A DNA stretch of 39,019 nt from Sedimenticola sp. Lineage in GTDB: Bacteria; Pseudomonadota; Gammaproteobacteria; Chromatiales; Chromatiaceae. Within the stretch, counting starts at the first letter, position 1, and each line of letters starts with the position of its first letter. The DNA is taken from positions 1 through 39,019 of the forward strand of contig JALVTT010000065.1 of NCBI GenBank assembly GCA_027024025.1, in the 5' to 3' direction. A program made the position numbers and the translations under genes. The notes beneath the pieces were generated by a model. The model was given only the letters and a program-made list of their open reading frames with translations, was not told the DNA's origin and ran no database searches. Shown piece after piece: positions 22,113 to 36,848 of this stretch.

Positions 22113-23255
22113 ATGAACCGCCCAATGCAAACAAAAAGAACCGACATGCATGCACTCAACCAAGCATCAGCCACACATGGCAAAGCACGTATCCAGAAGT
22201 TGAGTGCAAACATTCTGCTCTGCATATCACTGACGGCCGGAGCCACCCTCTCGGCTAATTCAGCGCCACCACTTAACGAGAGCTGCCAGGCCACGCTCAA
22301 GGCAAAATTAGTCAAAGCCTATATCGACACTTGGTATTACCGGACGCTATCAGCCCTGGACCTCCGCCTCGCGGACCTGTATACGACGAGAGAAAATTCG
22401 CTGAGAAGCGCTCAGGAGAGTAGCCCTCCGAGTGGACATCAGGCAGCCCGTTACCAAGTGTTAGCGCATGGAGAAAGCAACATGGCCGCAGCCGCGCGCC
22501 GCACACTGGAGGAACTAGGCGCCACCCCGCCTGACAAGAGTTCGCCTCCCCCAGCCTTGCAGTCCTATATCCCACAGAACCTGGACCAGGCTCGAATGAA
22601 GATGCGCGAAAATGGTTGCTCACACAATGCATCGGCCGGAATGGACGAAAACGACACCAACTTGGTGTTGGATAGCAACTGGCATCAATACCAGGTCCTG
22701 AAGGCCGAGATCGGCGATTCTTTCGAGCCAGAATATAGGGATCGGACTGACTCCATTATGTCACTCGAGGCCCGGCGTCAAAGACTGGAAAAACAACATG
22801 AGCTGTTGATGCATGCCAGTGAGGTACTTGCACTGACTGGTCAGGCCGAGCGCTATGCCGCGATTCTTTCGGGCGGGGAGGCTGGTACCACCCAAATTAC
22901 CTCCGAGTTGGCGGAGAGCGATGCTGAAGCGGTCATGCAAGCGTTGCAACAATGGATCGACGACTGGTCGCACCGCCGGATATCCGCCTACCTGGCGCAC
23001 TATGCGCCGGATTTCAAACCCCGGCGCTTCCATAGCCGCAAGGCATGGGCCCGGCATCGTCGCCGAATCATATCCCGTTCCCACAACATCCATATTGATG
23101 TAGGTGATCCCACGCTGCTTCAGCAAGGCAACGCCATCAGCGTGGAATTCACCCAGCGTTACCGTTCGGACAGCTATCGAGACACCACCTCCAAACGGGT
23201 GACTTTCAAAAATATCGATGGTGCTTGGAAAATCATTGCTGAAAGCAATCGATAA
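22113..23255 (+). CDS. Exported protein with C-terminal NTF2-like domain, probable cellulose-operon accessory protein
   Basis: A 380-residue protein with a basic N-terminus and a hydrophobic stretch ILLCISLTAGATLSANSA (about residues 34-51), a likely Sec signal peptide, so it is probably periplasmic. The middle (about 55-255) is hydrophilic and helical with no recognised domain. The last 110 residues (ALQQWIDDWSHRRISAYLAH, then FTQRYRSDSYRDTTSKRVTF, ending GAWKIIAES) have the shape of an NTF2-like (SnoaL/Cds6 C-terminal) domain, often used for protein or peptidoglycan binding. Eight bases separate it from bcsE, and composition matches the bcs genes, so co-transcription is likely. I know no standard Bcs name for it. 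Confidence 0.75.
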   Translation: MNRPMQTKRTDMHALNQASATHGKARIQKLSANILLCISLTAGATLSANSAPPLNESCQATLKAKLVKAYIDTWYYRTLSALDLRLADLYTTRENSLRSAQESSPPSGHQAARYQVLAHGESNMAAAARRTLEELGATPPDKSSPPPALQSYIPQNLDQARMKMRENGCSHNASAGMDENDTNLVLDSNWHQYQVLKAEIGDSFEPEYRDRTDSIMSLEARRQRLEKQHELLMHASEVLALTGQAERYAAILSGGEAGTTQITSELAESDAEAVMQALQQWIDDWSHRRISAYLAHYAPDFKPRRFHSRKAWARHRRRIISRSHNIHIDVGDPTLLQQGNAISVEFTQRYRSDSYRDTTSKRVTFKNIDGAWKIIAESNR

Positions 23256-23263
23256 CTTCAAGA

Positions 23264-24181
23264 ATGGGTAGCAAGGAACAAACTTCCGAGACCTCTGGGC
23301 TTCCGATCAGGCCCCTGCATCTCTGCACGCCTGCTGTTCTCGAGGGCCTGAGCATCCCCCCAGCGGGATGGCAAATCCTTTCAGACATCGACAGCCTGGG
23401 CGATACCGAACTCCCAGAACCAATCGCCTCCCTATGGCTACATTACGACAAGGGTTCGGTAATTGCGGAACGTGAACAACAGATTTCACAATTACGAGCA
23501 CATCTAGGCCCCAACATTCCGATTCTGTTGGTCGAGAGAGGCATCAAGCTACGCCACATCCACAGCATGCGTCTAATAAGTCGTGGCATTACCCAGATTT
23601 TACCCGACATAGGGGTGCACGACCTGCTCCGCATCGCTATTAGTTGGCAAAACCTAGAAATCAAGCATATCAGCAGGCCAAGCTCGGACGATGACGGCGA
23701 GGCCGTGCCCGCTGTCACTGGATACCTTGCCCCAAACCAATTTCATCAACTGGCAGGAACCTTGTTGAGCCAGGATGCGACCGACGGCATTCAAAGCGCC
23801 TTGCTTCGCTTGCGACCGCTACCAGGTTTTTCCCTCAGCGATGTTGCTCAGGCCTACACTCCCAACCGTGAGCACGATGTATTCACACTTGATGAACAAC
23901 ACCTGTACCTGTTCCTGCATGGCTGCATGGATACTGACATTGATATCGCGCTTGATCACCTATTCTCACTACCGCCCAGCCAGCTATTTGCCTGGGAGCA
24001 GCGCTTCGTTACGCACTCAGATATCATGGCGGAGCTGATCCGAATTCAGCACAAAGCGGAAATCGCGCTCCCGACCTTACCCAACCCGGGACAAAACCCA
24101 GTCGTCACCTCCTCCGCCCCCCCTTCCGACATGGCAGGCGAGGCCGTACCCATGCCATTGAACTGGCCCTCCGATCCGTAA
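23264..24181 (+). CDS. bcsE: BcsE-like cellulose regulator lacking the N-terminal domain
   Basis: A 305-residue cytoplasmic protein. From LEGLSIPPAGWQIL onward it follows the C-terminal two thirds of E. coli BcsE as I remember it. A receiver-like region (about 25-135) is followed by a GGDEF-like region (about 150-265) with LLRLRPLPGFSLSD, HLYLFLHGCMDTDIDIALDH and LFSLPP closely matching BcsE. E. coli BcsE has about 220 more residues at the N-terminus, absent here. The c-di-GMP-binding RxGD motif is REHD (residues 202-205), keeping Arg and Asp but with His for Gly. BcsE helps activate the synthase through c-di-GMP and BcsR/Q. The ATG at 23264 has a weak ribosome-binding site. Confidence 0.8.
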   Translation: MGSKEQTSETSGLPIRPLHLCTPAVLEGLSIPPAGWQILSDIDSLGDTELPEPIASLWLHYDKGSVIAEREQQISQLRAHLGPNIPILLVERGIKLRHIHSMRLISRGITQILPDIGVHDLLRIAISWQNLEIKHISRPSSDDDGEAVPAVTGYLAPNQFHQLAGTLLSQDATDGIQSALLRLRPLPGFSLSDVAQAYTPNREHDVFTLDEQHLYLFLHGCMDTDIDIALDHLFSLPPSQLFAWEQRFVTHSDIMAELIRIQHKAEIALPTLPNPGQNPVVTSSAPPSDMAGEAVPMPLNWPSDP

Positions 24182-24351
24182 CCCGAACGGATCAAGAGCC
24201 CAGAGACCAAAGAAAAAACGTGCCAAAAGCAGATTTTAATGGTAAATTAATGAATAACTCATAAGAATAGCGTAATTTAGTACGTAAAGCCGGGCACTAG
24301 ATCACACAATTGACGCCAAGGCCCATTCGGCCAACGACAAAAAATCCACGC
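24182..24351 (+). promoter_or_regulatory. AT-rich gap before bcsG, possible internal promoter
   Basis: 170 bases separate bcsE from the chosen bcsG start, the largest gap in the bcs region. Bases about 24230-24290 are strongly AT-rich (TTTTAATGG, TAAATTAATG, AATAACTCATAAGAATAG), as expected of a promoter or protein-binding site, but I cannot place a convincing -35/-10 pair. No bcsF-like small membrane protein is encoded here. Confidence 0.4.
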
Positions 24352-26079
24352 ATGGACAGCCAAAACCATCCAGAAAAAATCAGCGTCGGCACCGCTTCCA
24401 CGGCGGTGAACGTACGGAACCGCAATCCGGAGGAGCAGCTGCCCGAAGGGCCGCCCCCACTCCTCCACAATGTCACCTTGGGACTGTGGAGCCTCTATTT
24501 CCTGATTAAGCTCTTCCTCTACTGGAAAGGCTATATTGGCTTCCACGCACTGGAGAACCTGGCCTTCGCCGCCTTTCTCCTGATCCCGGTAAGGAACCGC
24601 GCATTACGAGTCATCCGCGGCATCCTTGCTATTGGAATTGGTCTGGCCTTGCTCTATCACGACACCTGGCTTCCCAGCCTGGAAAGCGTGATTGCCCAGA
24701 TCTCAAATCTGGAAGGATTCTCTGGCCAGTACCTCTTTGAATTGGCCATGCATTTTATCAACCCACGGGTACTATCGCTTCTAGTGATCCTGACCAGCGT
24801 CTATTACCTGGTATCTCGTTACATCCGGGTCGGCGCCTTGGTTCTTGTGGCTCTTGTGACGCTTACCCTCTATCAAGCAACCTGGCCCGCGCTGATGCCG
24901 TCGCTTGCCCGGGGGCGACATATCGCCACGGCGGACCCTCAAGCCAGCATGTCTCAATCGAGGTCGGCCGATGTGTCCATAACCGACCCAAACAGCCTTC
25001 AGGCCACCTTAGACCAGGCATTGCGAGATTTCCATGAACGCGAAAAAACCCGGGTTATCACCTTCCCTGAAAATGCTGACCCCGATTTTGATCTACTGAT
25101 CCTGCACGTCTGCTCCCTATCATGGGACGATCTTGACTGGGCCGGCCTGAAAAGTCATCCCCTACTGGCACAATTTGATATTCTGCTTACGCAATTCAAC
25201 TCTGCTGCCAGCTACAGCGGCCCTGCGGCCATCAGGGTATTACGGGCTAATTGCGGACAACCCTCACACGCCGCGCTATATTCTGAAGCCCCGCGGGCAT
25301 GCTATCTGTTCGACAATCTCAGAAGAGCCGGTTTCGAGACCGGGCTCGCCTTGAACCATGATGGCGCCTACGGCCACTTCCTTCGCGAAGTACAGACGGA
25401 AGGGCACTGGAATACCCCTCCAATGCCTGTTGATGACGTCCCCGTGATCCAACATGCGTTCGACGGAACCCCCATCCACGACGATTTAGGGGTGCTATCC
25501 AAATGGCTCTCCCGACGCGCGAACCGCCCCCGTCATAACGCAACCTATTACAACACCATCAGCCTGCATGACGGCAACAAATTGGTTGGACCCAATGCCA
25601 ACCTTGACAGTCGGGAAAACTATCGACTAAGACTGAGAAACCTGCTTGACAATCTTCTGACATTCTTCCGGAAACTGGAGAAAAGCGGCAGAAATGTGGT
25701 TGTGGTCTTGGTGCCAGAACATGGCGCCGCAGTGCGGGGCGACAAAGTCCAGATCGCCGGCCTGCGGGAAATCCCCACGCCCGCTATCACCCAGGTGCCT
25801 GTTGGCATCCGCATCTTTGGCGCGAACCTCAAGCACGGAAGTCCTGTTCAAATCAGCAAGCCGACAAGTTTTCTCGCAATTTCCCATATCCTAAACAAAC
25901 TGTTACGAGACCATGCGTATAAAGAAGGGGAAATTGATCCAAAGGCACTGACCGAGGATATCCCCGAGACTTCTCTCGTATCAGAGAACTCAGATACCAT
26001 TTACATGCGTTACCAAAATTCCGACTATCTGCGCCTGAATGACGGCCAGTGGATACCTCAATATCCGGACGACAAGTAA
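24352..26079 (+). CDS. bcsG: Cellulose phosphoethanolamine transferase BcsG
   Basis: Transfers phosphoethanolamine from phosphatidylethanolamine to cellulose at the periplasmic face of the inner membrane. The 575-residue product has four to five membrane helices in residues 35-190, then an alkaline-phosphatase-fold domain. The E. coli BcsG catalytic elements are all present: Cys in HVCSLSWDDL (zinc), nucleophile Ser in NSAASYSGPAAIR, His in TISLHDGN, and Glu-His in VPEHGAAVRGD. The ATG at 24352 is chosen by comparison with BcsG N-termini; a TTG at 24310 would add 14 residues. There is no clear ribosome-binding site. It precedes bcsR by 12 bases in an otherwise tightly packed operon. Confidence 0.94.
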   Translation: MDSQNHPEKISVGTASTAVNVRNRNPEEQLPEGPPPLLHNVTLGLWSLYFLIKLFLYWKGYIGFHALENLAFAAFLLIPVRNRALRVIRGILAIGIGLALLYHDTWLPSLESVIAQISNLEGFSGQYLFELAMHFINPRVLSLLVILTSVYYLVSRYIRVGALVLVALVTLTLYQATWPALMPSLARGRHIATADPQASMSQSRSADVSITDPNSLQATLDQALRDFHEREKTRVITFPENADPDFDLLILHVCSLSWDDLDWAGLKSHPLLAQFDILLTQFNSAASYSGPAAIRVLRANCGQPSHAALYSEAPRACYLFDNLRRAGFETGLALNHDGAYGHFLREVQTEGHWNTPPMPVDDVPVIQHAFDGTPIHDDLGVLSKWLSRRANRPRHNATYYNTISLHDGNKLVGPNANLDSRENYRLRLRNLLDNLLTFFRKLEKSGRNVVVVLVPEHGAAVRGDKVQIAGLREIPTPAITQVPVGIRIFGANLKHGSPVQISKPTSFLAISHILNKLLRDHAYKEGEIDPKALTEDIPETSLVSENSDTIYMRYQNSDYLRLNDGQWIPQYPDDK

Positions 26080-26091
26080 AGGTGCCGAGAC

Positions 26092-26307
26092 ATGACACGG
26101 AGGACAGTCACGCCGCTCATGCCCGAATGCCTCAAACACCCTGGGGAGGATGCCAGGCATTTGGCTCGGCAAACCGGCATGCAGCACTATCAAGAGATCA
26201 GACGCTGCGCTCGATTTGAGAACTTGCTCGAGCGCTGGCCGTTGCTGGCAGCCATCGCCGTATCCGCGCCTGCATATGAAGAACAGAATCCCGAGGAGCG
26301 GTACTGA
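26092..26307 (+). CDS. bcsR: BcsR-like small regulator of cellulose synthesis
   Basis: A 71-residue protein whose segment HYQEIRRCARFENLLERWPLLAAIA (quoted in parts: HYQEI, LLERWPLLAAIA) matches the C-terminal signature of E. coli BcsR (DYADIS...LKRWPLLAEFA). BcsR forms a tight heterocomplex with the BcsQ ATPase and contacts BcsA in the cytoplasm. Its TGA overlaps the bcsQ ATG by one base (TGATG), so translation is coupled. Its position directly before bcsQ is the standard bcsRQ order. The N-terminal 30 residues are divergent. Confidence 0.82.
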   Translation: MTRRTVTPLMPECLKHPGEDARHLARQTGMQHYQEIRRCARFENLLERWPLLAAIAVSAPAYEEQNPEERY

Positions 26308-27065
26308 TGCCTATCGTCAGCCTCATTGGCATTAAAGAGGGCGTTGGCAACACATCGGTTAGTGCCGCGCTTGCCACGATTCTTGCCCAGCAGGGCAAGA
26401 ACGTGCTTGCCATAGATCTGTGCCCCGACAATGCACTGAGGCTGCACCTGGGCATGCCGTGGGAAGCATCGCCTACCAGCCGCGCCTGCCCTACGACCTA
26501 TAGCGAATGGCGCAAATTCACTTGGCGCAGTCCAGATGGCGCTTTCTTCCTGCCCAACAATGTCCGTAACGTTCCTGCTTCCGATATTACCGCTCAAGAA
26601 AGCGCGGAATGGGTCATCAAGGATCTGCCTCAGCTGGTTCAGAGTTCGGATAACTGGATTCTATTGGACACCCCCATCTTTGGGTCGATCACCCAACAGG
26701 CGCTGTCTGTGGCAGACATTGCCATCATTGTTACCAACAATACCCCTTCGAGCTACATCAGAGTATTAGAGGCTTGGCCTGCTTTAGAAGCAGCGCGACA
26801 ATGCCAAAAGATGCAGCCACCACTACTTGTCATAAACCAGTTCGACCCTCGCTCGCTCCTGGAAAGCGATGTCCACGAACTGTACTACGCGCGTTTTGGT
26901 GATAGGTGCTTCCCTCGCGCAATCCCCTATGACACCCGAGTGGGCGAATCATTGGCCAAGGGACTAAATATCGCTAGCTACGCGCCGAGCAGCCCGGTAA
27001 CCTCTCGAATTGGCGCGCTTCCATTATGGATAAAGGCCCAAAAACAATTGCCGAAAAACTCATGA
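26307..27065 (+). CDS. bcsQ: Cellulose biosynthesis ATPase BcsQ (MinD/ParA-like)
   Basis: A 252-residue SIMIBI-class P-loop protein. The N-terminus MPIVSLIGIKEGVGNTSVSAAL is a deviant Walker A with the signature Lys (K11) but Asn where most MinD/ParA proteins have the second Lys; BcsQ proteins commonly differ here. NVLAIDLCPDNALRLHLGMP is the typical BcsQ switch region, and WILLDTPIFGSITQQALSVAD the Walker B/second switch. With BcsR and BcsE it assembles on the cytoplasmic side of the synthase. A GAGGAG site lies within the end of bcsR. It overlaps bcsA by ATGA. Confidence 0.92.
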   Translation: MPIVSLIGIKEGVGNTSVSAALATILAQQGKNVLAIDLCPDNALRLHLGMPWEASPTSRACPTTYSEWRKFTWRSPDGAFFLPNNVRNVPASDITAQESAEWVIKDLPQLVQSSDNWILLDTPIFGSITQQALSVADIAIIVTNNTPSSYIRVLEAWPALEAARQCQKMQPPLLVINQFDPRSLLESDVHELYYARFGDRCFPRAIPYDTRVGESLAKGLNIASYAPSSPVTSRIGALPLWIKAQKQLPKNS

Positions 27066-29593
27066 TCATGGACCGTCTAGATAACAAACCGGACACTAAT
27101 CCCCAAACGGTTGGCCCCGCCCGAAACCCCTTGTTTCGCGGGCCACATGGCTATTTCTCAAGCCGAATCGCCCCTTTGTATCCGCAGATCGACTTTCAGC
27201 ACCTGAAACCCCTTGATCCGCTGCGGTTTATCGTGCAAACCGTCTGGCTCCTGCTGGTGATCCCTCCAGCGTACCGACGTCCTCCTCTGTTGCCCCGCCT
27301 ACGCAGGTGGGGAAGCAAATTCTCGCGTTGGGTCATCGCTCATCTGCCGGGCATCAACGCACTGCGTGAATCGACCGAAACGGGCATAATCCGCGACAAA
27401 GTTTCGGCATTGGTTAATCACCCCGTAATCCAAATCCCGCTAGTCAAATATACGGCTTACGCGATTGGGTTTACCTTGGTGGCATTCGCCATCACCACAC
27501 CACTCAGCCTGCCCACACAAGCTCTGTTCATGGTGATGCTATGGATCCTCGCCCTATCAATCAGACAGATAAGTGGCAATCTGGCCAGTATCCTGCTGGT
27601 CTTGCTATCCGCGATTGCCTCGACCCGATATCTTTGGTGGCGCGCTACCCATACCCTCAACTGGGACGACATGATCGACCTCGTCCTGGGAATCGGTCTC
27701 CTGGCAGCCGAGATCTATGCATGGCTGGTGCTTATTCTCGGATTCATTCAGACCATTTGGCCTCTGCGCCGCCAACCCGCGCCATTACCGGAAGACACGT
27801 CGCAATGGCCCAGCGTGGATGTATTCATCCCCACCTATAACGAACCACTCAAGGTAGTAAAACCCACGGTGTTGGCCGCAGTCGGAATGGACTGGCCCGA
27901 AGACAAGATCAATGTCTATCTCCTTGACGATGGCCGCAGGCCCGAGTTCAAGGAGTTTGCCGAGGCGGCTGGAGTGCATTACATCACCCGGCCAGACAAC
28001 AAGCACGCCAAAGCTGGCAACCTCAACCATGCCCTCGCGATGACTTCAGGTGAACTGATTGCCATATTCGATTGCGACCATATCCCTACGCGATCATTCC
28101 TGCAAACCAACGTCGGCTGGTTCTTGCAGGACGACAAGCTGGCGCTCATGCAAACGCCCCATCATTTCTACTCGCCGGATCCGTTTGAACGCAACCTGCA
28201 GAATTTCCGGAAAGTGCCTAATGAAAACGAGCTGTTTTATGGTGTGGTCCAGGACGGCAATGATTTCTGGAACGCAGCCTTTTTCTGCGGATCCTGCGCC
28301 CTGTTGAAGCGTGGCCCTCTGGAAGAAGTTGGCGGGATCGCCATGGATACCGTAACCGAGGACGCCCATACCGCGCTCCGACTACACCGGCGAGGCTATA
28401 ACTCGGCCTATTTGAACATCCCTCAGGCGGCAGGCCTGGCCACGGAAAGCCTTTCCGCCCATGTAGGTCAACGCATCCGTTGGGCACGTGGCATGATTCA
28501 GGTACTGCGTTTAGACAACCCCCTGCGCGGCAAAGGACTGTCTTTCGGACAGCGGCTCTGCTATACAAACGCCATGTTCCACTTCCTGGCGGGCGTACCG
28601 CGACTGGTATTTCTGACCGCTCCGCTTGCTTTTCTTGTTGGACACGCCTACATCATCCACGCGCCCGCCCTGATGATCCTAATGTATGTGCTTCCACACT
28701 TGGTACATGCCAACCTGGCGAACTCACGTCTCCAGGGAAAATACAGGCATTCATTCTGGGCAGAAGTATATGAATCGGCGCTCGCCTGGTATATTGCCCG
28801 CCCCACTACGGTCGCATTGTTCGCACCACACAAGGGAAGCTTTAACGTTACCGCAAAAGGAGGATTGATCGAGCAACAACATTTCGACTGGGAAATTGCC
28901 AAACCTCATCTCGTACTGGTCGGGCTAAACATTATCGGCATCCTGTTCGGGATCTGGCGCTTGGCCTACGGTCCGGACGATGAGATCAGTACCGTGGTGC
29001 TCAATATCGCCTGGACTGTTTACAACCTGATTATCCTGGGGGCCACCCTGTCGGTAGCGGCTGAAACACGGCAGATCCGATTCAATCACCGAATCCCGGT
29101 GCGCATGCCGGCGCTGATCCAACTGCCGGATGGCCACGCGCTTGAAGCAGAGACAGTTGATTTCTCGGAGGGAGGGGTTGCCATTGAGCTTAAGGAAGAC
29201 ATCGAAGATTTGCTACATAAGCCAGTTTCGGTATCGCTCTGCCAGACGCCTTCTTCAACCGCTTGGCGGGGCCGGATCATTCGTGCCCATGGCAACCAGA
29301 TCGGGATTCATTTCGACCCAATGACTAGAGAACAAGAAAAACAACTGGTGCACTGCCTATATGGCCGGGCAGATGCGTGGATTGACTGGAGCAAGGATCG
29401 ACCTGTTGATCATCCCTTGCGCTCGATGATGGAAATCCTGCAGGCGGGATTCTCCGGATTTCATCGTGTTCTTTACTTCATGTCACCACGCGCAGTAAAT
29501 AATCTTTACAAGGGACATCGGGCGCTCATCTGGTCTTATTCATTCTTTCCAAGAACACCTGAGCACCTTCAGACACAGGGGACTTCATTATGA
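27062..29593 (+). CDS. bcsA: Cellulose synthase catalytic subunit BcsA (UDP-forming)
   Basis: Processive GT2 glucosyltransferase that polymerises UDP-glucose into beta-1,4-glucan and passes it through its own membrane channel; 843 residues. The catalytic motifs are complete: DVFIPTYNEP, YLLDDGRRPEF, the DxD in AIFDCDHIP, TVTEDAHTALRLH (general base TED) and QRIRWARGM (QxxRW). The C-terminal PilZ domain (about 672-760) has RFNHR (RxxxR) and DFSEGG (DxSxxG), so c-di-GMP activation should be retained. About eight membrane helices are seen. The start at 27062 is chosen because it makes the ATGA overlap with bcsQ; a longer frame from 27026 would overlap more. It overlaps bcsB by ATGA. Confidence 0.96.
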   Translation: MIMDRLDNKPDTNPQTVGPARNPLFRGPHGYFSSRIAPLYPQIDFQHLKPLDPLRFIVQTVWLLLVIPPAYRRPPLLPRLRRWGSKFSRWVIAHLPGINALRESTETGIIRDKVSALVNHPVIQIPLVKYTAYAIGFTLVAFAITTPLSLPTQALFMVMLWILALSIRQISGNLASILLVLLSAIASTRYLWWRATHTLNWDDMIDLVLGIGLLAAEIYAWLVLILGFIQTIWPLRRQPAPLPEDTSQWPSVDVFIPTYNEPLKVVKPTVLAAVGMDWPEDKINVYLLDDGRRPEFKEFAEAAGVHYITRPDNKHAKAGNLNHALAMTSGELIAIFDCDHIPTRSFLQTNVGWFLQDDKLALMQTPHHFYSPDPFERNLQNFRKVPNENELFYGVVQDGNDFWNAAFFCGSCALLKRGPLEEVGGIAMDTVTEDAHTALRLHRRGYNSAYLNIPQAAGLATESLSAHVGQRIRWARGMIQVLRLDNPLRGKGLSFGQRLCYTNAMFHFLAGVPRLVFLTAPLAFLVGHAYIIHAPALMILMYVLPHLVHANLANSRLQGKYRHSFWAEVYESALAWYIARPTTVALFAPHKGSFNVTAKGGLIEQQHFDWEIAKPHLVLVGLNIIGILFGIWRLAYGPDDEISTVVLNIAWTVYNLIILGATLSVAAETRQIRFNHRIPVRMPALIQLPDGHALEAETVDFSEGGVAIELKEDIEDLLHKPVSVSLCQTPSSTAWRGRIIRAHGNQIGIHFDPMTREQEKQLVHCLYGRADAWIDWSKDRPVDHPLRSMMEILQAGFSGFHRVLYFMSPRAVNNLYKGHRALIWSYSFFPRTPEHLQTQGTSL

Positions 29594-31863
29594 AAAATCT
29601 GATACTTCGATACTTTCTGATCACTGCCTGCGCTATGGCGGGCATGGTTCAGGCCGCGCCCCCGGTTACAGTCCCGGACACACCCGAAACCCTGCCAGCA
29701 GGTCACCATGTATTGACCTTCGACGATCTCGGCTGGCACAAACCGATCGCTCTTTGGGGTATGCAGGGCAGTAACGACGTCAACTTCAGTGTGCGTGCCG
29801 ATGAAATAATTACCCAGGCAAAGGTCCGCCTGACTTATTCGTGGTCACCCTCGCTGATTCCTCCACTGTCTCAGCTTCGAGTGCTTTTGAACGGTCATGT
29901 CATCCAAACTCTGCCGCTGCCCAAGGAACACGCCGGCAATCCGGTCTCCCAGGATATCGTACTTGACCCCCGTTTATTGGGAGACTACAACCAACTTCGT
30001 TTCCAATTGATCGGTTATTACACCGAACATTGTCAGGATCCTGTCAGCCCCCTACTGTGGGTCAACGTGTCCAACCTGAGCGAACTGGAAGTCGAGGTCA
30101 GCCCACTACCTCAGGTTAACGATCTGGCGCGCTTTCCGGAGCCTTTCTTCGACAAGCGGGATCCCAGCATGCTGCAACTGCCATTCGTGGTGCCACAGGA
30201 TGCGGATGACAAGACTCTCGAAGCCGCCGCGATCCTATCCTCCTGGTTTGGCGCGCGCGCCGACTGGCGCGGTGCCGATTTCCCGGTCGCCCACGACCTC
30301 TCCGAAATCAAAGGTCGCTATGGCGTCGTAGTAGCCACCGACACCATACTGGCTAGATACCTTCCAGGTTACTTCAAAAATCATCCACAAATCGAAGGGC
30401 CTACGGTTGCCGTCATAACACCGGAAAACCGCCCATATGGAAAGTTACTGTTGGTTCTGGGCCGAAATTCCGAAGAGCTGCGCGAAGCGGCCGTCGCGCT
30501 GACTACGAGTACTGCAACCCTTTCCGGTCCTGTGGTCACTTTCAAGGCACCGCGTCACCTGGCTCCCAGAAAACCCTATGATGCGCCACGCTGGGTAGCG
30601 CTGGATCGCCCCGTCAAGTTCGGGGAACTGACGGGGTCCGATGACCTGCAAGTCAAAGGACATATTCCAGGCCCAATTAACGTCGATCTACACATTCCGC
30701 CAGACCTGTTCTTCTGGGACAGCAAGGGGGTTCCGCTGGATCTTAAATACCGTTATTCGCCTCCGATCGATACCGACGAATCGCGTTTGAGCCTGTTCTT
30801 AAACAACAGCTTTGTTCAAACCTTCAACCTTTATGAGAAAGGCCAAGGGGGGATCAAAAAGCATGTGCGCCTTCCAGTTCCCGGCGCCACCCTGGTAGGC
30901 GGCAATTCAGTGCTGCTGCCAACCTACAAGCTTGGCATGCAGAACCGGCTCCGTTTTGACTTCACCTTCGCATATCACAAGAAAGGCGAATGTCAGGATA
31001 CCGTGCTTGACAACACCATTGCGGCCATCGATGCCGATTCACAGATCGACTTCAGTGGTTTCCCCCATTATGCGGAAATGCCGAACCTGCATTATTTTGC
31101 CGAATCCGGCTATCCCTTTACCCGCATGGCCGATCTAAGCGAAACCCAACTCTATATGAGTAGCCGGCCAGCATCCCAGGATGTCCGCCTGATGCTGGCC
31201 GTGATGGGCAGGCTGGGCGCCATTACCGGTTATCCGGTAACGGGTCTGGATATTGTGTTGTCAACCGAGAATAAGCCGGCAAATGACAAAGATATCCTTA
31301 TTATCGGATCGCGAGTCGCGAGCCAAATGTTCAGGCAATGGGATATCAGCCCGAACAACGGCGCCTTCAAGGATCTGAGCATATTCTCGGAACCGGTCGA
31401 GCGGGCAAACCGTTGGGATAACTGGACAAAACTCGGCAAAGGCCCTAATACGGAGGCTGCTGCCCAGGTGACATCTTTCCCGTCGGGTACGCTTGGCGCT
31501 CTGATAGGCTTCCAATCTCCGCAGAGTTCTGAGCATAGCGTGGTTGCAATGACCGCGAACCAAGGCGACGGACTTGATGCTATTCGTAAAGGCCTACTGG
31601 GTAACGATACGCGAAGCAAGATCCAAGGGAGCGCCACCTTCTTCCGTGGCAAGGAAGTCGATGCCATCGAAGATGTGCTTGTGGGTGATACCTATCATCT
31701 AGGCAACCTCCCCCCGTGGACGCTGCTGTGGTACAAATTGTCTCACCACCCTCTAGCGTTGAGTCTGATAACCTTGGCCACCATAGTGATCCTTGCTATT
31801 GGGCTGTGGGCATGGCTGCGTAGGCGTGCCGCACGGCGACTGGCCCAAAAACAGCAAGCATAA
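29590..31863 (+). CDS. bcsB: Cellulose synthase periplasmic subunit BcsB
   Basis: Periplasmic partner of BcsA, anchored by one C-terminal helix that completes the catalytic unit. The 757-residue product begins with a signal peptide (MKNLILRYFLITACAMAGMVQA) and ends with a membrane segment LALSLITLATIVILAIGLWAW plus basic tail. Two carbohydrate-binding/flavodoxin-like repeats are typical of BcsB; recognisable stretches are LRVLLNGHVIQTLPL, FQLIGYYTEHCQDP and FDFTFAYHKKGECQDT, with the Cys-containing loops in both halves. Length is normal. Its TAA is directly followed by the ATG of bcsZ. Confidence 0.94.
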   Translation: MKNLILRYFLITACAMAGMVQAAPPVTVPDTPETLPAGHHVLTFDDLGWHKPIALWGMQGSNDVNFSVRADEIITQAKVRLTYSWSPSLIPPLSQLRVLLNGHVIQTLPLPKEHAGNPVSQDIVLDPRLLGDYNQLRFQLIGYYTEHCQDPVSPLLWVNVSNLSELEVEVSPLPQVNDLARFPEPFFDKRDPSMLQLPFVVPQDADDKTLEAAAILSSWFGARADWRGADFPVAHDLSEIKGRYGVVVATDTILARYLPGYFKNHPQIEGPTVAVITPENRPYGKLLLVLGRNSEELREAAVALTTSTATLSGPVVTFKAPRHLAPRKPYDAPRWVALDRPVKFGELTGSDDLQVKGHIPGPINVDLHIPPDLFFWDSKGVPLDLKYRYSPPIDTDESRLSLFLNNSFVQTFNLYEKGQGGIKKHVRLPVPGATLVGGNSVLLPTYKLGMQNRLRFDFTFAYHKKGECQDTVLDNTIAAIDADSQIDFSGFPHYAEMPNLHYFAESGYPFTRMADLSETQLYMSSRPASQDVRLMLAVMGRLGAITGYPVTGLDIVLSTENKPANDKDILIIGSRVASQMFRQWDISPNNGAFKDLSIFSEPVERANRWDNWTKLGKGPNTEAAAQVTSFPSGTLGALIGFQSPQSSEHSVVAMTANQGDGLDAIRKGLLGNDTRSKIQGSATFFRGKEVDAIEDVLVGDTYHLGNLPPWTLLWYKLSHHPLALSLITLATIVILAIGLWAWLRRRAARRLAQKQQA

Positions 31864-33003
31864 ATGGTCAGACCCAGCCATCGTTTCAATGGCAGATTGG
31901 CAGGCGTGGTACTACTTTCCTGCCTACATTGCGCCTCTGCGGCACCGGTGCCGGTCACCTGTCCGGCACCGGTGTCCTGGGAGTCGTTCGCTCAAGAGAT
32001 GCTGTCCAGCGATGGCCGGGTCATCGACTATTCCAAGCCAGATCGCCGCACCACATCGGAAGCCCAGGCCTACGCATTGTTCATGGCCTTGGTCTGGAAC
32101 GACCAGGCGCGCTTTTCCCGCATATTGTCTTGGACGCTCAATAACCTGGCCCATGGCGACCTTTCTGCAAACCTACCGGCCTGGCTTTGGGGCAAAAGCA
32201 AAGACGGAGATTGGAAAATCCTGGACAACAATTCAGCCAGCGATGCCGACTTGTGGCTGAGTTACACACTGCTTGAAGCTGGGCGTCTCTGGGGAGAAAC
32301 CAGCTACCGCGAACTGGGGCGCCAGCTCGCAGACAAGATCCTTGCTCAGGAGACTGTCGATACCCCTATACTCGGGCGTATCCTGTTACCTGGAAAGCAG
32401 GGCTTCTCTCACAAGGATGGCAGTACAGTGGTCAGTCCCAGCTATCTGCCCATACAGGTGCTGCGCCGCCTGGCGATCCTCTACCCGAACCAGGCCTGGG
32501 CCGCCATTCTAGAGAGTAGCGCCAGAATCCTGCTGTCCAGAGCTAACGGCTTACAATCAGACTGGCTGGAAATTGACAAACACGGGAACATTCATCCGGA
32601 ATCAAAAAAATCGCGAACCGGAAGCTACAACGCACTCCGCACCTACCTTTGGGTAGGGTTACTCTCGCCGCAAGAAATTTGGGCCCCTATTCTACGATCT
32701 CATTTTGAGCATGCGCTTGTGCGATTTATGCGTCCTGGTCTCTTTCCTGAACGGATTGACACTGAGACAGGAAAAGCTTCTGGTCATCTAAACCCGCTAT
32801 TGCACACGACCATTCTTCCGCTGCTTGAAAGCCTCGGATATCAACGGGATGTCGAAACTTACTGTCAACGGCTAAATGGCATGGATCTGAGCGAAGCGGG
32901 CTATTACTCAAAAATCCTGGCACTGTTCAGCCTTGGTTGGCTGAACGGTCAATATCAATTTGCTGCTGACGGACGCCTGGAGCCAGAATGGAAACATACT
33001 TAA
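31864..33003 (+). CDS. bcsZ: Periplasmic GH8 endoglucanase BcsZ with altered catalytic base
   Basis: BcsZ trims cellulose in the periplasm and is needed for normal export. The 379-residue product has a signal peptide (LAGVVLLSCLHCASA) and follows E. coli BcsZ closely: RTTSEAQAYALF with the general acid Glu66 (E. coli E55), LPAWLWGK, DNNSASDADLW with Asp127 (D116), and LLPGKQGF. In the motif matching SYDAIR of E. coli, where Asp243 is the general base, this protein reads SYNALR with Asn256 (codon AAC, 32629-32631). Activity may be lost or rely on another residue, as in GH8 subfamilies using a different base. The start abuts the bcsB stop; the end overlaps bcsC by 16 bases. Confidence 0.92.
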   Translation: MVRPSHRFNGRLAGVVLLSCLHCASAAPVPVTCPAPVSWESFAQEMLSSDGRVIDYSKPDRRTTSEAQAYALFMALVWNDQARFSRILSWTLNNLAHGDLSANLPAWLWGKSKDGDWKILDNNSASDADLWLSYTLLEAGRLWGETSYRELGRQLADKILAQETVDTPILGRILLPGKQGFSHKDGSTVVSPSYLPIQVLRRLAILYPNQAWAAILESSARILLSRANGLQSDWLEIDKHGNIHPESKKSRTGSYNALRTYLWVGLLSPQEIWAPILRSHFEHALVRFMRPGLFPERIDTETGKASGHLNPLLHTTILPLLESLGYQRDVETYCQRLNGMDLSEAGYYSKILALFSLGWLNGQYQFAADGRLEPEWKHT

Positions 33004-36000
33004 GGCATTTGATCACTTCATTACTCTTCCTATTCGCACCCCTGTCCGGGCTTGCCGCACCGGCGGGAGCGGATTTGCTGTTTGAATACGCCAATACATC
33101 CTATTCCCTGGATGACCTTGGTCGTGCCGAAGATCAGGTAGGCAAGATTCTGCGCGCCCACCCTGACCATCCAGGAGCACTCGCGCTGGACGCCTTTATC
33201 AAGCTCAAGCGAAAGAACAGAAAGGCAGCGGAACAGGATTTGGAACGGTTGATCCAAAATCATCCCGATAGCCCTTATACGCGGGCCGTCAAGCAATATA
33301 TGCCTTCCTACTCGGGTTCTGTGCCAACTCCTCTGCGCATGGCCATGCTGCTGACAAAGGGAGGTCGACCCGAGGCAGCACTGGAAAAATGGCGCATTGC
33401 CATGCCTAATGGCCCAGCCCCCGGCCCATTGGCCTATCGATACGCCCTGCTTCTGAAATCACTAAACAAAACAGCTGAGGCCGAGTCAGTTGCACGCATA
33501 CTGACACGCTACTACCCGGGCAACCTTAACTATCGACTGCTACTAGCCGAAACATTGGCACAACGACCGAACTCCATCCATGAGGCAAACGCCATCTTTG
33601 GACAATTAACCGCCTATCCCGCTTTAGAGACAAAGGCTCGTAGCGACTGGCGCGAGTTGATTATGCGCACATCTGAGCCATTAATTGGACTCCCACTGGC
33701 CGAACAATACCTTGTCCGTTATCCAGATGACTACGACGTAATTGAACGGCGGAAACAGCTGACCGACCTTACCGCCAAACAAACTGCGGAAGCGCAAACA
33801 ACGCCCAAAGCCAAAGTATCGGCCAAGGCCACAAATACTACTGCCCCGCCCCGCGACCCCGAACTTGCCAAGGCGGAAAAGTTGATCGAACATGGAAAAA
33901 ACGAGGCAGCCAGACATCAACTAGAACGGATATTGAGGAGACGCCCCAATCAAGGGGAAGCTCTAGGCTATCTTGGCTTGGTTGAACTTCGCCAGGGGAA
34001 CCGTCAGGAGGCCAGGCAACTTTTCCAAAGAGCATCGCGTCTCGATGACCAGGAAAGGCGGGGTAAATGGCGTTCACTTGCCAAGACGGCGCGCTACTGG
34101 GATCTGCTGAGCCAGGCAAAGGCCGCCTCTGATGCGGGACAGATCGATCAAGCCAGCCAACTGCTGCATCAAGCTATCAAGCTTGACCCATCCGAAGCCA
34201 CCGGCCTGGCACGGCTTGGCGACGTGCTCGCGCTCCGTCATGAAGACCCCGAGGCAGCGCGCCTCTACCGGCGTGCCCTGAGGATTGATCCCACCAACTG
34301 GGCCGCGCTGCATGGCCTTGCCGAGCTGAAGTCCAGACGGTCGCCCGCCGATGCCGTTCGTTTTCTCGACAGCCTGACATCGAGGCAACGCCGGAAACTG
34401 GGCAGCGAACATCCACGCCTGCTAGCCGGCGCGCTTCGGGATCTGGCCGACATCCAACTCGCGGATGGCCGGGTCACAGCTGCTCGTGGTTCGCTTCGGC
34501 GCGCCCTGGAAGTGGCCCCCGCCAACCCCTGGGTACGGTTCGACCTGGCCCGCCTGCAATACAAAACCCGGGGCTCGCTCGAAGGCATCGATCTGTTCGA
34601 ACAAGGCCTGCGTATAGCGCCCTCGGATCCGGAGATGCACTATGCCTATGCACTCTTCCTCCGCTCCGTCGACCGCGACCAAGATGCCATCGCGCAGATC
34701 GATGCCATTCCGGAGGCCCAGATGTCTCCCAAATACCGTGACACGCGGCTGGCGCTTTTGACACGTATCCAGCGTGACCGGGCATTGGCCCTTTACCGCA
34801 AGGGCAAGGAAGCCGAAGCGAAGAAGATACTGCGCGCGGCCGAGACCCCGGAAGCGCTGGACAGCCCCCTGGCCAGCGGCATCCTGGCTGGCGCATGGCA
34901 ACGACTCGGCAAGCCCAAACACGCGGTACAACTGTTGTCCAAACACCTGGACAGACCGGAAGCCCGCGACCCGGATCTGCAACTTGACCTGATCGACGCG
35001 CTGCAGGCCGCCCATATGCATGCCGCCGCTCACGCAAGAATCGCCCAGCTTTGGCATACTGAGCATATCAGTGCCCGCCAGACCCGTGAACTGGCTAAAC
35101 TGGACAGCAAAAACAGCCTGGCCATGGCCCAGCAATTGCTCAAAAAAAATGACTACGAGCAGTCCCGGCGTGTCCTGGATCAGGCCATCCAGCGCCTGCC
35201 AGTTACAGCGTCGTTGCTTTATGCCCGAGCACGCGCCGCGCGCGGTCAAGGCGATATCCCCCAGGCGCTCGACGACCTCCTGGCGGCAAGCACCCTGGCC
35301 CCGAACAACAAGGATTACCGGATCGAGCGCATCGAGCTGCTGACATCCCGGCCAGGCAGTCATCCTCTGGCCAGACAGGAGGTCGATGACCTGCTCGCCA
35401 TCCTGCCGGAGAACGACACCGAGACACGCATGCGGCTCATCCCCATCCTCTACAAGGGAGGAGAAAAGCAGCTTGCGCAGCAGCTGGTGGGGAACATGGC
35501 CCGGCGATATTCCAGCGACCACGAGATGCTTCGACGCCTGGCCCGTCTGGATACCGCATCCCACAACGGACACAACGCCCTTGCCGTGTACCGGCAGGCG
35601 CTATTGCCGCCGGGCGATCAGCGAGACCCCGCTCAACAATGGGCCGACTGGGCCGACACCGCGCCCGTGCCTGTGGCTGAAGAGGTCGATACTGCCATGG
35701 CACAGGAAAGGCGGACCCTCACTGCAAGCCTGGATTTCGGCAGCCGTTCCGCGACCAAGGGGCTCTCCAATCTGAGCGCCCTGCGCACATCCATCGAGGG
35801 ACGGCAACCGCTATACAAGGGATATGTCTTCGCCCATGTCGAACCCACGCATCTGGATGCCGGCACCCTGAACATGGCCAACCCCCGCGACCGTGCCGAC
35901 CTGGGCACCAACCTGTTGTGCACCGCCGGTTGCGCCTCGCTGCCCGGCAGGCAGAAAGCCGACGGGGTCGGCCTGCTGTTCGGCTATGAAGACGATCAAT

Positions 36001-36848
36001 GGCGCATCGACGCGGGCACCACGCCCATTGGCTTTCCGGTCCACTACCTGATCGGCGGCATCCGCTACAAGGACAGCCTCGGCCCCATCGACTGGAGCAT
36101 CGATCTGTCCAGACGGCCGATCACCAGTTCCCTGCTGAGTTACGCGGGCACCACCGACCCCAACTCCGGACGGAAATGGGGCGGCGTCAACGCCACCGGC
36201 CTGACACTCGGCCTGTCGCACGACGACGGCGGCCCCTGGGGCGTCTGGAGCGACTTCGAGTTCCACAAACTGAGCGGTCAGCACGTAGGCTCCAACGACC
36301 GCTTCCGCCTGCTCGCGGGCACCTATTACAAATGGCTGCGCGAACCCGACCAGCGCGTCAGCGTCTCGCTCAACGGCATGTACTGGCAACACCAGCACAA
36401 CCTCGGTGAGTACACCTGGGGCCATGGCGGCTATTACAGTCCCAAACAGTACCTCTCGCTGTCCACCGCCCTGGACTGGTATGGCCGGAACGCCCGCTGG
36501 TCCTGGGACGCCCGTGGTTCGATCAGCCGCTCGCAGTCCAAGACCGACCGCGCGCCCTACTTCCCGACTGACCCGGCCCTGCAGGCCAGGGCGCAGGCCA
36601 TCAGCGGCACCACCGGCATCAACCCCTTCTACAAGGCCAGCAGCGGACCGGGCACCGGCTACAGCCTGGAAGGTGCCCTGGAATACCGCGTCAACCGCTT
36701 CCTGCACATCGGCGGCAATCTGTCCATCGAGCGTTCCCAGGATTACGCGCCCAACCACGGCATGCTGTACCTGAGGCTGACCGATGAGCCGGACCTGAAG
36801 CGGATTCCGATGCCGCCCAAGGCGCCCCTGAACATCCCGGACTACTGA
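32988..36848 (+). CDS. bcsC: Cellulose export outer-membrane protein BcsC (TPR plus beta-barrel)
   Basis: A 1286-residue exported protein that carries glucan across the periplasm and outer membrane. A signal peptide (LITSLLFLFAPLSGLAAPAG) precedes a long TPR solenoid (about 30-870; for example AARHQLERILRRRPNQGEALGYLGLVELRQGN is one typical repeat, read at about residues 303-334). A Lys/Ala/Thr-rich spacer lies near 265-285. From about residue 905 (TASLDFGSRSATKGLSNLSA) the BcsC C-terminal barrel begins, with repeated aromatic, alternating strands to the end. The ATG at 32988 lies inside bcsZ with GGAG upstream. Base composition rises along the gene: early parts are AT-richer like the other bcs genes, late parts match the flanking chromosome. 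Confidence 0.94.
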   Translation: METYLRHLITSLLFLFAPLSGLAAPAGADLLFEYANTSYSLDDLGRAEDQVGKILRAHPDHPGALALDAFIKLKRKNRKAAEQDLERLIQNHPDSPYTRAVKQYMPSYSGSVPTPLRMAMLLTKGGRPEAALEKWRIAMPNGPAPGPLAYRYALLLKSLNKTAEAESVARILTRYYPGNLNYRLLLAETLAQRPNSIHEANAIFGQLTAYPALETKARSDWRELIMRTSEPLIGLPLAEQYLVRYPDDYDVIERRKQLTDLTAKQTAEAQTTPKAKVSAKATNTTAPPRDPELAKAEKLIEHGKNEAARHQLERILRRRPNQGEALGYLGLVELRQGNRQEARQLFQRASRLDDQERRGKWRSLAKTARYWDLLSQAKAASDAGQIDQASQLLHQAIKLDPSEATGLARLGDVLALRHEDPEAARLYRRALRIDPTNWAALHGLAELKSRRSPADAVRFLDSLTSRQRRKLGSEHPRLLAGALRDLADIQLADGRVTAARGSLRRALEVAPANPWVRFDLARLQYKTRGSLEGIDLFEQGLRIAPSDPEMHYAYALFLRSVDRDQDAIAQIDAIPEAQMSPKYRDTRLALLTRIQRDRALALYRKGKEAEAKKILRAAETPEALDSPLASGILAGAWQRLGKPKHAVQLLSKHLDRPEARDPDLQLDLIDALQAAHMHAAAHARIAQLWHTEHISARQTRELAKLDSKNSLAMAQQLLKKNDYEQSRRVLDQAIQRLPVTASLLYARARAARGQGDIPQALDDLLAASTLAPNNKDYRIERIELLTSRPGSHPLARQEVDDLLAILPENDTETRMRLIPILYKGGEKQLAQQLVGNMARRYSSDHEMLRRLARLDTASHNGHNALAVYRQALLPPGDQRDPAQQWADWADTAPVPVAEEVDTAMAQERRTLTASLDFGSRSATKGLSNLSALRTSIEGRQPLYKGYVFAHVEPTHLDAGTLNMANPRDRADLGTNLLCTAGCASLPGRQKADGVGLLFGYEDDQWRIDAGTTPIGFPVHYLIGGIRYKDSLGPIDWSIDLSRRPITSSLLSYAGTTDPNSGRKWGGVNATGLTLGLSHDDGGPWGVWSDFEFHKLSGQHVGSNDRFRLLAGTYYKWLREPDQRVSVSLNGMYWQHQHNLGEYTWGHGGYYSPKQYLSLSTALDWYGRNARWSWDARGSISRSQSKTDRAPYFPTDPALQARAQAISGTTGINPFYKASSGPGTGYSLEGALEYRVNRFLHIGGNLSIERSQDYAPNHGMLYLRLTDEPDLKRIPMPPKAPLNIPDY

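Follow-up and report, generated by a model that had tools for sequence, protein, structure and literature searches.

The bcs operon in the DNA analysed here, a 39,019-nucleotide stretch from Sedimenticola sp. that is referred to as the window, encodes a BcsZ cellulase with asparagine at the position of the general base, and the question raised by this locus is whether and how such an enzyme could still cut cellulose. In E. coli BcsZ the catalytic residues are given as Glu55 and Asp243 (PMC11379886), in Enterobacter BcsZ Asp242 is named as the base catalyst (PMC8805304), and both papers treat this Asp as catalytic and take its Ala mutant as the inactive form. From open reading frames (ORFs) and profile matches, the operon lies on the plus strand in the order short bcsE, bcsG, bcsR-like, bcsQ, bcsA, bcsB, bcsZ and bcsC:

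23264..24181, plus strand, bcsE, short form (ORF; the PF10995 match is confined to positions 228-483 out of 513 in the Pfam model)
24310..26079, plus strand, bcsG, phosphoethanolamine transferase (ORF and profile matches)
26092..26307, plus strand, bcsR-like gene, 71 aa (PF10945, 29.6 bits, cut-off 25.2)
26307..27065, plus strand, bcsQ (ORF and profile matches)
27026..29593, plus strand, bcsA, cellulose synthase (ORF and profile matches; scanned stretch 27062-29590)
29590..31863, plus strand, bcsB (ORF and profile matches)
31864..33003, plus strand, bcsZ, glycoside hydrolase family 8 (GH8) endo-1,4-beta-glucanase, 379 aa (ORF, NF008305, PF01270, AlphaFold2 model)
32988..36848, plus strand, bcsC, outer-membrane export protein (NF008520, 594.5 bits, under the cut-off of 858)

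bcsZ starts directly after the bcsB stop and its end overlaps the start of bcsC. The true start of bcsA may lie further in than 27026. The ORF immediately upstream of bcsE (22113-23255) carries a C-terminal NTF2-like Cds6_C domain (PF24125).

That the gene is bcsZ, as proposed in a first-pass annotation of this DNA, was borne out by its profile scores, its place and its fold. The protein scored 404.4 bits against the BcsZ equivalog model NF008305 (cut-off 299) and 195.9 bits against the Pfam GH8 model PF01270 (cut-off 24), the gene lies between bcsB and bcsC, and both the general acid Glu and the -1 subsite Asp are present (Glu66 and Asp127). An AlphaFold2 model (mean pLDDT 90) was matched with VIA-align to BcsZ of P. 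putida (4q2b, Z 49.8), of Vibrio (Aliivibrio) fischeri (5cd2, Z 49.4, 43% identity) and of E. coli (3qxq, Z 47.8, 38% sequence identity), each with an rmsd of 1.5 Å, and Z values against GH8 structures were about 32-50, placing the protein in the (alpha/alpha)6 fold. A profile search of the contigs found one GH8 gene in the 2.46 Mb genome to which the window belongs.

Codon 256 of the 379-codon ORF 31864-33003 is AAC, giving GSYNALRTYLWVGL. The phmmer alignment with E. coli BcsZ (3qxf) had no gaps near the site and placed Asn256 opposite the Asp of SYDAIR, and counting along an alignment with E. coli BcsZ reproduced E55 and D243, in agreement with the residues named in PMC11379886. The positions of the active site that matter here are the following:

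32629..32631, plus strand, Asn256 at the general-base position (E. coli Asp243), codon AAC, from the phmmer alignment
32059..32061, plus strand, Glu66, general acid (E. coli Glu55), codon GAA, invariant in 189/189 BcsZ rows
32242..32244, plus strand, Asp127 (E. coli Asp116), binds the -1 sugar, codon GAT, invariant in 189/189
32443..32445, plus strand, Tyr194, codon TAT, invariant in 189/189
32560..32562, plus strand, Asp233 (E. coli Asp220, PDW motif), candidate alternative carboxylate by its column pattern, codon GAC

The Asn at the base position, the retained acid and Asp127, and the E. coli numbering had all been put forward in the earlier annotation, and all agreed with these results. The role of Asp127 was taken from Asp115 of EbBcsZ (PMC8805304), and Tyr194 probably corresponds to Tyr160 of AfmE1, which holds the nucleophilic water. 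Subfamily a of GH8 is defined by a catalytic Asp where CelA has Asp278 (PMC5407803), and the window BcsZ, with Asn256 there, falls outside it.

The window BcsZ is like E. coli BcsZ (3qxf/3qxq/9b87) in fold, operon place, acid (E55), D116 and cleft residues, but has Asn where the E. coli enzyme has its base Asp243. The top phmmer match in the PDB was 5cd2, which comes from a different organism and shares both the fold and the Asn at the base position (GSYNAIR). This structure has been public since 2015 and is named in a figure legend of PMC8805304, and a search by topic of the literature on BcsZ found no account of its activity or its Asn.

How common the Asn is was examined in BcsZ proteins from 55 related genomes, from profile searches of 369 genomes of the class, 210 of the order and 398 of the phylum, and from a further 300, 121, 112 and 151 genomes around four relatives. 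Loci were taken from among the matches listed (at most 30 per genome search), with six more from plasmid records. The 260 matching ORFs gave 232 distinct sequences after removal of 28 duplicates; 189 of these were BcsZ proper by score and 188 covered the site, the fragment L200 lacking it. Matches not taken into the sample scored like other GH8 proteins, the exceptions being a second BcsZ-scoring copy in one genome (G877, also listed as G1216) and fragments in G1083 and G1332. The 43 low-scoring GH8 proteins that were left out as not BcsZ proper had D21, N9, S6, E3, A2 and two gaps in the base column, with the acid kept in all 41 rows covering it.

Among the matches listed, the 188 distinct BcsZ rows divided at the base position into 110 with Asn, 73 with Asp, 2 each with Ala and Glu and 1 with Gly, and the Asn codons were AAC in 85 rows and AAT in 25. 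This count is tilted toward Asn because one of its sources prefers window-like sequences: the best 80 loci from named species genomes (N55 D25) came from an alignment headed by the window protein, with a site pattern that admits D or N and excludes A, G and E. The rows from genome profile searches alone, which are free of this pattern, gave N51 D45 A2 E2 G1 (n = 101, among the matches listed), and clustering at 80% identity gave 119 clusters, of which 56 were Asn, 57 Asp, 1 mixed, 2 Ala, 2 Glu and 1 Gly. The Asn had earlier been called unusual for a bcs-encoded enzyme, a view contradicted by these counts and by 5cd2; Asp was found in only 73/188 rows, and the two nearest relatives have Ala. 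GAC and AAC differ by one transition (G to A), so an error of sequencing or assembly could in principle have produced the codon. Given that Asn was found in 110 of 188 distinct rows, AAC is not a chance reading or a likely base-calling error, and as both nearest relatives also lack Asp we regard such an error as hardly credible.

Asn was found on the tree in named Burkholderia, Cupriavidus, Pandoraea and Dyella rows, in rows from the family of Vibrio rumoiensis and in 14/16 rows of a clade holding two named Legionella, and Asp in E. coli, Serratia, Yersinia, Pectobacterium and Xanthomonas rows. Of the solved BcsZ structures, that of V. fischeri (5cd2) has Asn and those of P. putida (4q2b), E. 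coli and Enterobacter have Asp.

The history of the base column was followed on a quick tree built without this column, in which 62/185 inner branches were weakly supported and several branches were long. The column required 21 changes on the best tree, and none was required in 15 columns, including those of Glu66, Gln68, Asp127, Tyr194 and Arg259; Gln68 was, like the residues listed above, invariant in 189/189 rows, and Arg259 in the 188/188 rows covering that position. The median column required 35.5 changes, so the base column is not generally fast, and the point to be noted is that it varies at all, in a catalytic centre that is otherwise fixed. When Asn was scored against all other residues, 17 changes were required, and well-supported branches forced 10 or more of these; one labelling gave 7 Asp-to-Asn and 9 Asn-to-Asp steps, with a direction that rests on its midpoint root. 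The window BcsZ groups with two other proteins (clade support 99), one from the same genus (L003, genome G004) and one from the same family (L124, genome G532), which both have Ala, in the motifs GSYAAIR and GSYAALR, with different Ala codons (GCC and GCG). A further protein of the same family (L123, genome G534) has Gly, and its sister rows have Asp. On this evidence the Asn state is not a local accident: Asp and Asn have switched repeatedly on the tree, and the window gene represents a common type within a clade (Asn, Ala, Ala) that makes unusually relaxed use of the position.

The rest of the active site has largely been kept. Of 18 further residues compared, acidic or belonging to the active site, Ala-type and Gly-type rows retained every one and Asn-type rows almost every one. 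Closely related Asn-type genes, compared in pairs, had a median dN/dS of 0.15 in aligned codons (n = 154 overlapping, non-independent pairs), indicating purifying selection, and Asp-type pairs a median of 0.10 (n = 15).

The residue type was also compared with the presence of bcsG in 166 genomes (that of the window, 10 others and 155 chosen for diversity from the 172 remaining non-plasmid loci), some of them incomplete and one match (in G998) being a fragment. bcsG was present in 87/92 Asn-type and 41/69 Asp-type genomes (Fisher p = 6e-8), and in 1/2 Ala, 1/1 Gly and 0/2 Glu genomes. Pairs taken from the tree favoured neither direction (0.4 vs 0.3 of 9 pairs), and the association is to be taken as shared ancestry until shown otherwise. 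A tie between Asn-type BcsZ and phosphoethanolamine cellulose was therefore rejected, the raw association being gone once relatedness was allowed for.

Apart from 5cd2, the GH8 structures without a base carboxylate compared here are those of laboratory mutants, whereas the state in the window is natural. The D242A mutant of Enterobacter sp. CJF-002 BcsZ (7f82) has an unchanged fold and an Ala like that of the nearest relatives of the window protein; the D281N mutant of the TtGH8 xylanase (6g0n) and the D263N mutant of REX (2drr), the latter known here from its entry title alone, have Asn as in the window and act on other substrates. In E. coli, D243A and E55A were both inactive within the limits of a CMC plate assay, and cellulose secretion was much reduced with D243A and not above background with E55A (PMC11379886). 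Enterobacter D242A barely digested cellulose, yet its crystal contains a cleaved chain, for which the authors suggest a weak attack by water without a base (PMC8805304). TtGH8 D281N kept trace activity, given as about 0.1% in the text and as 1.8e4 vs 1.6e8, which is about 0.01%, in the table (PMC6173055). In bcsZ mutants of Herbaspirillum rubrisubalbicans the CMC activity was lowered (PMC6412066), an observation that carries no weight in what follows.

Given that GH8 enzymes lose nearly all activity when the base is removed by mutation (PMC6173055, PMC8805304) and that the closest relatives of the window protein have Ala, the Asn- and Ala-type BcsZ proteins might be non-cutting pseudo-enzymes that bind or steer the glucan chain or hold the export machine together. 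We consider this unlikely: the acid Glu66 was unvarying in 189 rows, including those with Asn (110), Ala (2) and Gly (1), and in E. coli secretion needs cellulase activity and not the BcsZ protein as such, since Cel9M or CMCax can take its place (PMC11379886). The way in which residues are conserved speaks more for an enzyme that still works, if slowly, than for a protein with a structural role only. Against this preference, the acid Glu of BcsZ also makes contacts with the substrate and with neighbouring Arg and Tyr residues (PMC8805304), and binding alone could account for its invariance.

If the protein does cut, another residue might act as the base. In GH8 subfamily b (Bacillus K17 chitosanase type) the base is a Glu carried in an insertion. 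The phmmer alignments with E. coli and V. fischeri BcsZ showed no large insertion in the window BcsZ, and a likeness to this kind of subfamily, which the first-pass annotation had considered, found no support. The protein has no Asp or Glu at residues 247-270, so no nearby carboxylate can be shifted onto the base position, and the alignment, gap-free at the site, places no other Asp there.

More distant carboxylates were considered too, the best candidate for a base in the Asn-type enzymes being Asp233. Residue 233 was acidic in all 115 rows without Asp256, and it was Asn in 4 of the 73 rows with Asp256, with four origins, so that D233N was seen only with Asp256. D233E occurred only together with Asn256, with three origins, and two sister Methylococcaceae rows exchange their carboxylates (L073 has E233 and N256, L092 has N233 and D256). 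Comparable segregation was however common elsewhere: in a control over all columns, 7/29 minor-residue features from columns at least 90% conserved segregated perfectly, two of these seven being column 233, and 17 columns segregated in both directions. As the pattern of Asp233 does not rise above this column-wide background, it is suggestive at most, and Asp233 is retained as a candidate stand-in base and no more. In a search for compensating residues, 1747 column features were compared with Asp/Asn on independent pairs and none was significant (best median p = 0.12); a feature was included if its rarer state occurred in no fewer than 8 to 12 rows, and column 233 was too rarely variable to enter. 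With only 9 well-supported pairs this result has low power and gives no support for a compensating residue, and that another carboxylate serves as the base appears quite unlikely. As a separate observation, Tyr348 was replaced by Phe in 7/73 Asp256 rows (Pectobacterium, Serratia, Pollutimonas and one further row) and in 0/109 of the Asn256 rows covering residue 348.

Asn256 might itself be the base. In PcCel45A, an inverting cellulase without an Asp base that belongs to a different family (GH45 subfamily C), Asn92 has been proposed to act as the base in the form of an imidic-acid tautomer (PMC5829257), and it would fit this precedent that the column in BcsZ is nearly all isosteric Asp or Asn (183/188). 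The Ala and Gly found in relatives speak against this as a general answer, the engineered Asn in the GH8 xylanase was nearly dead (PMC6173055) and no proton-relay chain was identified, and we regard a tautomeric Asn256 as distinctly improbable.

The reading to which we lean, at barely better than an even chance, is that the window BcsZ would be a slow inverting endoglucanase that trims periplasmic cellulose, for which the acid is needed and an Asp base is not, and in which Asn256 places the water. As in Asp-type BcsZ, Glu66 would donate a proton to the departing glycosidic oxygen, and the chain would be bound and distorted by Asp127, Arg259 and conserved aromatics, roles that are drawn from the invariance of these residues and from the published E. 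coli and Enterobacter structures. Asn256, isosteric with the water-deprotonating Asp that it replaces, would together with Tyr194 still position the water. Since Asn256 is a poor base the attack would be slow and partly solvent-assisted, and slow cleavage could be sufficient because the only task of BcsZ would be the cutting of stalled chains.

In favour of a slow endoglucanase are the variation of the base column (21 changes) beside five frozen residues (none), the intact active sites of the Asn, Ala and Gly rows, the purifying selection in Asn-type pairs, the single GH8 gene found in the genome and the residual function of E. coli D243A, Enterobacter D242A and TtGH8 D281N. Evolution and mutants agree in suggesting that the acid is indispensable and the base dispensable. 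On the other side, engineered base loss costs the GH8 xylanase about a thousandfold or more, and E. coli D243A looks inactive on CMC and secretes far less cellulose. As the E. coli authors concluded that cellulase activity is critical (PMC11379886), very slow cleavage may not suffice. The Ala of the two nearest relatives would be unable to place the water, and relaxed selection would fit there equally well. A full-text literature search found no published report of the activity of any Asn-type BcsZ, and this was also counted against a slow endoglucanase.

BcsZ with Asn at the base position is a common and apparently undescribed variant of a known enzyme. No discussion of this Asn was found in a full-text literature search, most subscription journals being outside its reach; given that 5cd2 has been public since 2015 the residue itself was visible in public data, and it is the generalisation that may be new. 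Taking the sampled sequences together, about half or more of proteobacterial BcsZ would naturally lack a carboxylate base, and it is possible, at somewhat less than an even chance, that inverting hydrolysis without a base, or with help from Asn, is normal and selected for in this enzyme and perhaps serves as a rate-setting device that spares the polymer. Should about half or more of BcsZ proteins naturally carry Asn, then either the textbook mechanism misses much of the family or very slow trimming suffices for secretion, and both alternatives touch on the question why a cellulase accompanies cellulose synthases at all.
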